From Microcaldota archaeon (GTDB lineage: Archaea > Micrarchaeota > Micrarchaeia > Micrarchaeales > Micrarchaeaceae): a stretch of DNA of 16,695 nucleotides. Of this stretch, positions 5,620 through 11,600 are shown piece by piece (the first letter of the stretch is position 1; the number at the start of each line of letters is the position of its first letter). Location of the stretch: NCBI GenBank assembly GCA_021829015.1, contig JAJZOJ010000030.1:1-16695 (forward strand), written 5' to 3'. The notes under the pieces were generated by a model. That model was given only the letters and a program-made list of their open reading frames with translations. It was not told the DNA's origin and did no database searches. The position numbers and the translations under genes are program-made.

Positions 5620-5628
5620 TTTAAATAT
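5620..5628 (+). promoter_or_regulatory. TATA box of the L7Ae-eS28-eL24 operon
   Basis: TTTAAATAT identical to the box at 3625. Transcription would begin near 5650, giving a leader of about 70 nt, unusually long next to the leaderless genes nearby and long enough to include the folded element at 5683-5717. Confidence 0.6.
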
Positions 5629-5682
5629 TCTCACTCTTAAACTATTATTCAGTACTTTCTGTGTATTCTTTTTACTGGAAAA

Positions 5683-5717
5683 GTAATACTGGATGAAGGT
5701 AAAACCGACGGTGTTAT
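5683..5717 (+). promoter_or_regulatory. Probable kink-turn in the L7Ae mRNA leader
   Basis: The RNA can form nine consecutive pairs (three G-U) between 5683-5691 (GUAAUACUG) and 5709-5717 (CGGUGUUAU). Next comes a three-base bulge GAU (5692-5694), then GA (5695-5696) opposite GA (5707-5708), which can form the two sheared G-A pairs that define a kink-turn. A is unpaired at 5697 and a short GGU/ACC stem is closed by AAA. L7Ae is the archaeal kink-turn-binding protein. The ribosome binding site GGUG (5710-5713) is inside the stem and 6 nt before the start, so binding should block translation: a feedback loop of the kind reported for L7Ae in other archaea. The single extra A is the imperfection. 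Confidence 0.65.
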
Positions 5718-5719
5718 AA

Positions 5720-6244
5720 ATGGCGAAATCTTACGTAAAGTTCGAGGTATCCGACGAAGTCGCGGCGAAGACATACGAGGCTCTGCAGCTGGCAAAGCAG
5801 TCCGGCACTATCAGGAAGGGTGCAAATGAGGTTACAAAGAGCGTAGAGCGCGGCCTGGCATCCTTTGTGGTAATAGCCGGGGACGTTGATCCCGAGGAGG
5901 TCGTGGTACACATACCATCCCTTTGCGAGCAGAAGAAGGTTCCTTATTCGTATGTACCTAACAAGGCAGACCTTGGCAAGGCCATAGGGATGAATGTCCC
6001 GTGCACCGCGATTGCGGTCGAGGGCCAGGGAAGCGCCTCAGGCGCGATAAAGGACGTGATAAGCAAGGTGACTGGGCAGTCATCGCATGCCTCGGCTTCC
6101 GAGAAGGAGAAGGCCCAGCCAAAGCACGAGCAGAAGGAGAAGCCCAAGGCCTCCAAGAAGCAGGAAAAGGGAGAGCAGGAGGGCAAGGAAGGGAAGCAGG
6201 AAGAGGCCGCAGAGAAGCAGGAAGAAGGAAAGGAAGGCGAATGA
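5720..6244 (+). CDS. rpl7ae: Ribosomal protein L7Ae, kink-turn RNA-binding protein
   Basis: 174 residues. L7Ae binds kink-turns in 23S rRNA, in box C/D and H/ACA guide RNAs and in archaeal RNase P. The first ~118 residues are the standard domain: YVKFEVSDEVAAKTYEALQL, the RNA-contacting IRKGANEVTKSVERG, FVVIAGDVDPEEVVVHIPSL, CEQKKVPYSYVPNKADLGKA and IGMNVPCTAIAV. Beyond it is a ~55-residue tail made almost only of Lys, Glu, Gln, Ser and Ala, which most archaeal L7Ae proteins (about 120 residues) lack. The start ATG is 6 nt after GGTG. eS28 starts 5 nt after the stop and eL24 follows, a classical archaeal order, though ndk and infB, often next, are absent. The leader probably carries an autoregulatory kink-turn. 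Confidence 0.96.
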   Translation: MAKSYVKFEVSDEVAAKTYEALQLAKQSGTIRKGANEVTKSVERGLASFVVIAGDVDPEEVVVHIPSLCEQKKVPYSYVPNKADLGKAIGMNVPCTAIAVEGQGSASGAIKDVISKVTGQSSHASASEKEKAQPKHEQKEKPKASKKQEKGEQEGKEGKQEEAAEKQEEGKEGE

Positions 6245-6249
6245 TTTAG

Positions 6250-6513
6250 ATGCCCGAGCAGAATCCATCGAAGCAGGACAAGAGCCAGTCCGAGCAGCCG
6301 CAGTTCTCCGGTTTCCTTGCGGAAATCGTTGACGTGAACAGGAAGAGGAAGACCGGCATAGCTGGGGAAATATACTCGATTTCCTGCAGGATACTCGAGG
6401 GCAATGACAAGGGAAGGATAATAAGGAGGAACGTCCTCGGGCCTATAAGGATCGGCGACGTTATAAGGCTCCCGGACACCAGCAGGGAGGCAAGGGAGAT
6501 AAAGGTAAAGTGA
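6250..6513 (+). CDS. rps28e: Small-subunit ribosomal protein eS28 (S28e)
   Basis: 87 residues. eS28 is a small OB-fold protein near the mRNA exit and E site of the 30S subunit. The conserved core is residues 19-87: FLAEIVDVNRKRKTGIAGEI, CRILEGNDKGRIIRRNVLGP and RIGDVIRLPDTSREAREI, close to the family's '[25 protein letters not shown]...ETEREA'. The first 18 residues (MPEQNPSKQDKSQSEQPQ) are an extra Gln/Ser-rich, probably disordered extension. The gene starts 5 nt after the L7Ae stop; a purine-rich GGAAGG-like stretch before the L7Ae stop is the only ribosome binding candidate, so translation may be coupled. Confidence 0.94.
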   Translation: MPEQNPSKQDKSQSEQPQFSGFLAEIVDVNRKRKTGIAGEIYSISCRILEGNDKGRIIRRNVLGPIRIGDVIRLPDTSREAREIKVK

Positions 6514-10556: not shown

Positions 10557-11600
10557 ATGCTCCAGATAGCCTCGCCTGCGATAGCATCATACTTCAACCT
10601 CGTTTATGGCATACTTTCGCGGTTCATTCCCCAGCCGTTCCTCTGGATAGCCTCATTCCTCATAGCGTTCGTGGTATTCCTTGTGATACTTGCGATAATG
10701 TTCAGCATATTCGCATACGTGTTCGGATGGATAGAGCGAAAGATAATAGGCAGGGCCCAGTCCAGGCACGGGCCGACGTACACCGGGCCGTTCGGCTTCC
10801 TGCAGAACATGGCCGACCTGGTGAAGCTTATGTCCAAGGAGGAGATAGTCCCGGACAAGGCTGACAAGCCCCTTTACCAGATGGTGCTTCCCTCAATGGT
10901 CGCATTGTTCGTGCTGATGCTCGCCTTCCTGCCCTTCACCAACGCATTCGTCGGGATAGAAAGCTCCCTGGGCCTGCTGGCGGTATTCGTGCTGCTGTCA
11001 TTCTCCCCGATAATAATGTTCCTGGCGGGATGGACGAGCGGGAACAAGTTCGGCTCGATAAGCGCACAGAGGTCGGTGATGGTGCTCGTGAGCTACGAGA
11101 TCCCGATGTTCATAGTCGTGGCATCGGTCGCGATGCTGGCCGGGAGCATGAGCCTTACATCAATAGTGAATGCGCAGAGCGGCATATGGTACGCCCTCAT
11201 GATGCCGCTGGGGTTCATAGTGTTCTTCATAGTGATGCTCGCGGAGATGGAGAGGCCGCCGTTCGACCTCAGGGAGGCTGACAACGAGCTGATAGCAGGG
11301 TGGCTCACGGACATAAGCGCCCCGTACTACGCGCTCTCGCTGTTCCTCGATTACCTTAGGATGTTCGTGGGAACGGTAATAATATCGCTCCTCTTCCTCG
11401 GGGGGTGGCTGGGCCCGGCGTTCATACCGCCGCTTGCATGGCTCATAACCAAGGCGGTCATATTGTCAATATTCATAATCGTGGTCAGGGCGACCATGGT
11501 GCGCATGAGGATAGACAGGGTCATCAGGACCGGCTGGGAATACCTGACGCCATTGGCGATGCTTAACCTCCTGCTCACCTTTATAATATTTGTCAGGTAA
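10557..11600 (+). CDS. nuoH: Complex I-like subunit H (NuoH/FpoH type)
   Basis: 347 residues with about eight membrane helices. NuoH joins the peripheral arm to the membrane arm and forms most of the quinone chamber. Conserved elements: WIERKIIGRAQSRHGPTYTG with GFLQNMADLVKLMSKEE, ISAQRSVMVLVSYEIPM, and EMERPPFDLREADNELIAGW, where most relatives have PFDLPEAE; the Pro is Arg here. The last helices include VRATMVRMRIDRVIRTGWEYLTPLAMLNL. First gene of the nuoHIJKLMN operon, transcribed from a TATA box about 30 nt upstream with almost no leader and no ribosome binding site. NuoA-D are not upstream; the adjacent gene is divergent and unrelated. Confidence 0.94.
   Translation: MLQIASPAIASYFNLVYGILSRFIPQPFLWIASFLIAFVVFLVILAIMFSIFAYVFGWIERKIIGRAQSRHGPTYTGPFGFLQNMADLVKLMSKEEIVPDKADKPLYQMVLPSMVALFVLMLAFLPFTNAFVGIESSLGLLAVFVLLSFSPIIMFLAGWTSGNKFGSISAQRSVMVLVSYEIPMFIVVASVAMLAGSMSLTSIVNAQSGIWYALMMPLGFIVFFIVMLAEMERPPFDLREADNELIAGWLTDISAPYYALSLFLDYLRMFVGTVIISLLFLGGWLGPAFIPPLAWLITKAVILSIFIIVVRATMVRMRIDRVIRTGWEYLTPLAMLNLLLTFIIFVR

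Follow-up and report, generated by a model that had tools for sequence, protein, structure and literature searches.

The mRNA leader of the L7Ae gene in a Micrarchaeota genome carries a kink-turn (k-turn) with the Shine-Dalgarno (SD) sequence inside one of its helices, and this leader very probably serves as a translational off switch operated by protein. The window, which is the whole stretch of DNA analysed here, comprises 16,695 nucleotides of contig JAJZOJ010000030.1. Judged by its sequence, the element is a k-turn leader of the L7Ae autoregulation type known from other archaea, here found in Micrarchaeota.

We propose that when free L7Ae is scarce the k-turn would not form stably and GGUG would remain accessible, so that L7Ae, and probably also S28e, would be made. 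Free L7Ae would then bind GAU-GA/GA, stabilise the C-helix and hide GGUG from 16S rRNA. In the unbound leader of the window and of some relatives, the 5' strand of the C-helix could be held by an upstream hairpin. L7Ae binding, repression and any role of this hairpin are what we infer from the features described below.

A k-turn with an embedded Shine-Dalgarno sequence precedes L7Ae

Positions 5683-5717 read GUAAUACUG-GAU-GA-AGGUAAAACC-GA-CGGUGUUAU and are followed by AA and the L7Ae ATG (Table 1). A C-helix, a three-nucleotide bulge, tandem GA/GA and a second helix are all present, the last being short (a non-standard 3b:3n, one pair and a loop). The first-pass annotation had described nine consecutive stem pairs, a GAU bulge and facing GA/GA dinucleotides forming a nearly complete k-turn ahead of L7Ae, and a GGUG ribosome binding site within the stem. 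Our analysis agrees on each point: a script count on the window gives six Watson-Crick and three G-U pairs, the gene that follows is L7Ae by its family match, and GGUG lies in the 3' strand of the C-helix, 6 nt from the ATG. The sequence taken as the 16S rRNA 3' end in the complete genome A_DKE, GAUCACCUC, contains CACC, which matches GGUG, and the window GGUG is therefore a fair SD sequence.

A loose k-turn descriptor matches 13.9% of dinucleotide shuffles of 81 leaders (the window and 80 relatives), and of 5000 shuffles made from the window leader just 0.1% reach a C-helix of 9 bp or more. The fold energy of the whole window leader is unremarkable (z +0.91) and uninformative, and an Rfam search of the window gave no match at gathering scores. 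The window has G:C at -1b:-1n and A:C at 3b:3n; by the rules given in PMC6298567, metal ions alone should not fold this k-turn.

Table 1. Features of the L7Ae leader and neighbouring genes in the window
Feature	Position	Strand	Basis or remark
TATA box TTTAAATA of L7Ae promoter	5620..5627	+	8/8 match to TTTAWATA, at -100
Upstream hairpin GUAUU-CUUUU-loop-AAAAG-U-AAUAC (predicted)	5663..5689	+	-5.2 kcal/mol alone
C-helix 5' strand GUAAUACUG	5683..5691	+	pairs with 5709-5717; covariation in class 1 leaders
Three-base bulge GAU (L1-L3)	5692..5694	+	NAU in 71/72 fitting leaders of the phylum sample
Kt-b GA (1b, 2b)	5695..5696	+	sequence; faces Kt-n GA
Apical part	5697..5706	+	3b A5697/3n C5706, 4b G5698-4n C5705 pair, loop 5699-5704
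Kt-n GA (2n, 1n)	5707..5708	+	sequence; faces Kt-b GA
C-helix 3' strand CGGUGUUAU	5709..5717	+	pairs with 5683-5691; covariation in class 1 leaders
Shine-Dalgarno GGUG within C-helix 3' strand	5710..5713	+	complementary to CACC of anti-SD
L7Ae (eL8) gene, 174 aa	5720..6244	+	TIGR03677 153.5 bits, cut-off 134.6
Ribosomal protein S28e gene	6250..6513	+	NF003080 92.6 bits, just below cut-off 95
NuoH-like gene, downstream of ribosomal protein genes	10557-11600		276.7 bits, below cut-off 305

A full match to TTTAWATA also occurs at -77 to -99 in 10 of 13 relatives inspected. Because of the TATA box position in the window and relatives, transcription probably starts near 5650, which would give a leader of ~70 nt. 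Only 5 nt separate the L7Ae stop from the start of S28e, which is probably on the L7Ae transcript; the leader may therefore govern both genes through coupled translation.

The window L7Ae contains the recognition helix NExxKxxxR (N36, E37, K40 and R44), whose NExxK and R are described as k-turn contacts in PMC4245976. NExxK is present in all 81 proteins of the set and the following R in 77. Lengths range from 118 to 179 aa across these proteins, and that of the window has a Lys/Glu-rich C-terminal tail extending ~50 residues past the family domain. Four proteins of a single clade have Q (L002, L017 and L023) or K (L007) in place of this R, and their leaders either have A at 2n or fall outside the classes defined below; it is possible, from these sequences, that protein and leader are drifting jointly in this clade.

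Leader classes and covariation among relatives

The relatives are the best 80 of 307 L7Ae-encoding stretches from a scan of genome contigs; they are 61-84% identical and titled Micrarchaeota or related names, including 'Marsarchaeota' and 'Mancarchaeum'. Leaders of the window and these 80 loci were classified automatically and then corrected by hand, with L006, L038, L041, L047, L049, L058 and L069 overruled or confirmed in this way. Class 1, which includes the window, comprises 39 of the 81 leaders and mostly reads CUG-RAU-GA-X-G..C-Y-GA-CGGUG. Class 2 (9/81) has A at 2n (GA..AA), and class 3 (24/81) is a triloop form, ACC-RAU-GA-three bases-GA-GGU. Two leaders with bulge ACC form class 4, and seven (L017, L023, L029, L037, L038, L047 and L050) lie outside these classes.

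Covariation was assessed in 34 class 1 leaders (28 distinct), with the insertion rows L031, L072, L076, L077 and L080 dropped. The nine C-helix pairs and 4b:4n are 83.6% standard in the 34 leaders versus 77.7% in shuffles. Among the distinct rows, both sides change at seven pairs versus 2.9 in shuffles, a count reached in 0 of 500 shuffles, and slid controls scored lower. The first-pass annotation had proposed looking in relatives for covarying stem pairs with GA/GA, and these numbers, together with the phylum-wide fit reported below, bear that expectation out. All 28 distinct rows keep the four bulge-adjoining pairs and 4b:4n, although class 1 rows were chosen by a descriptor requiring GA/GA and at least three pairs, so that those features are partly selected. 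RNAalifold predicts only the four bulge-adjoining pairs from this alignment.

The SD also lies at a variable distance from the tandem GA: no pair intervenes in class 3 or in the majority of class 2, a single pair separates them in most class 1 leaders, and L072, L076, L077 and L080 have two pairs there, with both strands altered together. We read this variation in the aligned sequences as a further sign of structure.

These comparisons also bear on A5697, which had been annotated as an extra unpaired base. We reject that assignment: 3b:3n is standard in only 6 of the 28 distinct class 1 rows (and A:C in 21 of 42 raw-table class 1 rows). Because 4b:4n is always paired and 3b:3n seldom standard, A5697 is most simply 3b facing 3n C5706.

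Some features of the relatives point the other way on function. C occupies 3b in 10 of 42 raw-table class 1 rows, and -1b:-1n is mostly C:G in class 2 (8/11) and class 3 (22/23) of that table, a difference from all six leaders discussed in PMC6298567. By the published rules both features favour folding without protein, which counts against an off switch.

Three leaders, examined by eye, depart from the common arrangement. L029 and L207 are without GA/GA and retain a CCGU/ACGG hairpin enclosing the SD, the pattern that loss of the k-turn core with retention of the helix would leave. L172 has a k-turn in another register, built on an ACAAUC/GAUUGU helix, and its SD lies in the apical loop.

The leader k-turn is widespread in the phylum and largely restricted to L7Ae

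We assembled a phylum sample of 97 genomes, 95 of which encode a near full-length L7Ae (90 above the family cut-off and five somewhat below); one of the other two has a weak L7Ae match and the other none. A fixed k-turn-plus-SD descriptor fits 72 of the 95 leaders versus 3.3% of dinucleotide shuffles, and a NAU bulge with tandem GA is found in 71 of 95 versus 0.46%. This sample and the 80 loci overlap, 29 of the 95 leaders being in both sets, and are therefore not independent; among the leaders outside those loci, 48 of 66 fit the descriptor and 48 of these 48 have NAU. The remaining 23 of the 95 leaders do not fit. By eye, at least L166, L242 and L237 among them have a longer apical hairpin that exceeds the descriptor limit, and L176 and L202 appear to be without the element. 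The leader k-turn, as recognised by these sequence features, is thus kept in most sampled Micrarchaeota genomes, often in a stripped-down form. The suggestion that the window holds an independent example of this regulation consequently finds no support, since the element is common to most of the phylum sample.

Within the searches made, the element is almost confined to L7Ae. In A_DKE (989,838 bases), we took candidate starts from the first third of 3,644 stop-to-stop frames of at least 80 codons on both strands, and a strict descriptor fits one of 10,563 such starts, which is that of L7Ae. A covariance model gives E 3.3e-11 before L7Ae in this genome, with the next match at 0.89. Across the 97 genomes, the covariance model with stricter filters gave one match in each of 17 genomes at an E of 0.01 or below, and a triloop pattern gave one match in each of 29 genomes; the reversed control matched nothing. 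All 17 model matches and all 29 pattern matches sit 13-26 nt before an L7Ae match. The model and the pattern were built from such leaders, so recovery of the leaders follows by construction, and the informative part is that nothing else matched.

A separate covariance-model search of 19 genomes with more permissive filters produced two further matches below 0.01, both in genome G003: L147 (E 2.2e-4) and L152 (E 9.8e-4). The remaining 18 genomes searched gave no counterpart to either. The k-turn-like match at L147:1501-1531 (26 bits) extends from the end of one reading frame into the leader of a second, and this second frame by eye resembles aIF1A. We treated both matches as probable chance.

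This distribution bears on two other accounts of the leader. The 35-nt element folds alone at -8.1 kcal/mol, and L029 keeps its helix around the SD without GA/GA, both in keeping with a plain SD-sequestering hairpin (for example a thermosensing one) in which L7Ae is not involved. Such a hairpin needs neither the NAU bulge nor the tandem GA that most of the 95 leaders keep far above the shuffle rate, and the element precedes the gene of a k-turn-binding protein and is hardly found elsewhere; we therefore regard the plain hairpin as very improbable. We think it more improbable still that the main ligand is another L7Ae-family protein, a weaker paralogue and possibly L30e. Most of the 97 genomes have a second, weaker family match, and yeast L30e regulates itself through a k-turn (as stated in PMC6298567), but the element precedes L7Ae, and self-binding is the published case in other archaea. 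The ligand that we favour is thus L7Ae itself.

A triloop form brings the Shine-Dalgarno sequence next to the k-turn core

Exactly three bases lie between the GA pairs in 32 of the 95 phylum-sample leaders: GAU in 8, AAC in 7, AAU and UAU in 6 each, GAC in 2, and UAC, AAA and AUU in 1 each. Where a leader ends in GA-GGUG, the SD continues directly from the Kt-n GA to give GAGGUG, which matches the anti-SD over six bases. In the L7Ae tree a well-supported branch (100/97) sets class 3 apart, and class 3 takes up every row on its side, so no exceptions were dropped among these 24 triloop rows. Changes of form were counted over the 32 triloop rows and 41 armed ones, with the window among them. The tree, in which many forks of this short protein are unresolved, requires seven triloop/armed changes, at least six of them forced by strong branches. 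The two forms thus replace each other.

We read the triloop leaders as k-turns free of an NC-helix. Their sequence is compatible with either polarity, and it is possible, though in our judgement rather unlikely, that they are instead K-loops of the box C'/D' type lying in the opposite orientation. The elements would then be assigned, at the same low likelihood, with RCC/GGU as the NC helix, RA as the n strand, UGA as the loop and NAY as the bulge, followed by GA. The triloop bases are NAY in 30 of 32 leaders, as such a bulge would need, and K-loops, which have a loop in place of stem I, are known targets of L7Ae (PMC8413462). The first GA, which the K-loop reading would not need, is invariant in the 24 aligned triloop rows (the L079 row being partial). 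The armed forms have an unambiguous polarity, agree with the NC-free reading in the alignment and alternate with the triloop forms on the tree. Conservation thus favours the NC-free reading.

Known RNAs offer parallels to these reduced forms. The K-loop of archaeal box C'/D' sRNAs likewise has one helix replaced by a short loop, as class 3 does (PMC8413462). The K-loop is without stem I, which by our reading is the C-helix, whereas class 3 is without the NC-helix on the NC-free reading. Kt-23, which is bound by L7Ae, has A at 2n like the class 2 leaders but is not a leader element (PMC3985660).

A predicted upstream hairpin would share a strand with the k-turn

In the window, AAUAC (5685-5689) can pair either with 5711-5715 in the k-turn or with GUAUU (5663-5667) in the upstream hairpin, which has the inner stem CUUUU/AAAAG. 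Because the 3' strand of the hairpin overlaps the 5' strand of the C-helix, the two structures are mutually exclusive. Of the 18 distinct leaders that have an AATAC arm, 14 carry GTAT within 40 nt upstream versus 3.0 expected, these being related rows and not 18 independent trials; the inner stems of AATAC-arm leaders differ and are mostly self-complementary.

The segment before the k-turn has slightly more favourable folding than its shuffles, with a mean z of -0.71 in class 1, -0.80 in class 2 and -1.61 in class 3, versus -0.09, -0.32 and +0.46 in control segments. Pairing of the arm with upstream sequence exceeds shuffles in class 1 (p 0.0056) and class 3 (p 0.022); there is no excess in class 2, and the window on its own gives p 0.17. 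A different null yields, for class 1, 0.008 at the site versus 0.030 in a control segment 20 nt upstream; for class 3 the two values are 0.047 and 0.41. No fold is predicted before the k-turn in L032, L034 and L042; the TATA box of L032 is nearer, at -77. Two successive hairpins of differing sequence stand directly before the class 3 k-turn in L035, L040, L045, L048, L070 and L073 (z -3.3 to -5.3), and L051, of the same kind, reaches only -1.1.

An energy model, which omits the k-turn itself and whose ensemble probabilities vary with the chosen ends, gives the hairpin about 0.89 and the C-helix about 0.10 for 5651-5725, 0.47 and 0.52 for 5654-5740, and 0.23 and about 0.7 for 5660-5725. When 5651-5725 is modelled as the unbound leader, its SD bases are paired at 0.60-0.78, chiefly within a weak local hairpin; the energy model therefore shows no 'open SD', which counts against the proposed switch.

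The upstream hairpin is, with moderate support, a plausible unbound state, or antisequestor, in the group to which the window belongs. It is nevertheless slightly more likely than not to be incidental or a stabiliser of the 5' end, with no switching role: the enrichments in class 1 and class 3 are modest and contrast less under the other null, the rows are related, the window alone does not stand out, and three leaders have no predicted fold. The excess of GTAT upstream of AATAC arms, whose inner stems differ yet remain self-complementary, argues against an incidental hairpin. We regard only as a doubtful extension of the off switch the wider reading of a two-state leader, in which the hairpin holds the k-turn 5' strand, combined with an NC-helix-free triloop k-turn in 32 of 95 leaders where L7Ae and 16S rRNA would compete for the GAGGUG bases.

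Relation to known leader k-turns

L7Ae leader k-turns have precedents in other archaea, supported by gel shifts, reporters, a crystal structure and in-line probing (PMC5539422; PMC6298567). Daume et al. (2017) described L7Ae autoregulation in Sulfolobus acidocaldarius, also tested other archaeal leaders and examined 121 species, naming as exceptions the Thermoproteales and Nanoarchaeum equitans, the latter without the SD (PMC5539422). The S. acidocaldarius leader resembles that of the window in its GAU bulge and in an SD adjoining the k-turn. Its SD lies on the 5' side of the bulge, where there is a single G-C pair, and a 4-bp stem follows the GA pairs (PMC5539422), whereas the window has Kt-b as its leading strand and carries the SD downstream of Kt-n, within a C-helix of 9 bp.

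The closer parallel is the Archaeoglobus fulgidus complex solved by Huang, Ashraf and Lilley (2019), in which the SD is occluded in the C-helix (PMC6298567). That leader shares with the window the GAU bulge, the tandem GA, the position of the SD and a predicted inability to fold without protein; it differs in having C:A rather than G:C at -1b:-1n and A:U rather than A:C at 3b:3n. Because its SD is already in the C-helix, an SD inside the stem, which the first-pass annotation had put forward as a novelty of this lineage, is not new. A competing upstream hairpin is not described for A. fulgidus, which belongs to a different phylum, in the portion of PMC6298567 consulted.

A search of the open-licence literature found no paper naming both Micrarchaeota and L7Ae, and none among the matches listed there concerned an NC-free k-turn or a competing hairpin in an L7Ae leader. 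L7Ae leader autoregulation and an SD in the C-helix are thus already known in other archaea, and their occurrence in Micrarchaeota extends them; the triloop form and the strand-sharing upstream hairpin go beyond the published accounts consulted.

These observations extend L7Ae self-control, as a very probable function of the leader, to a phylum of archaea with small genomes, on sequence evidence that spans it. The passage from an armed k-turn to a three-base loop, with the SD entering Kt-n, would provide a natural test set for a minimal L7Ae RNA, and the strand shared by the hairpin and the C-helix makes a protein-driven two-state leader directly testable.
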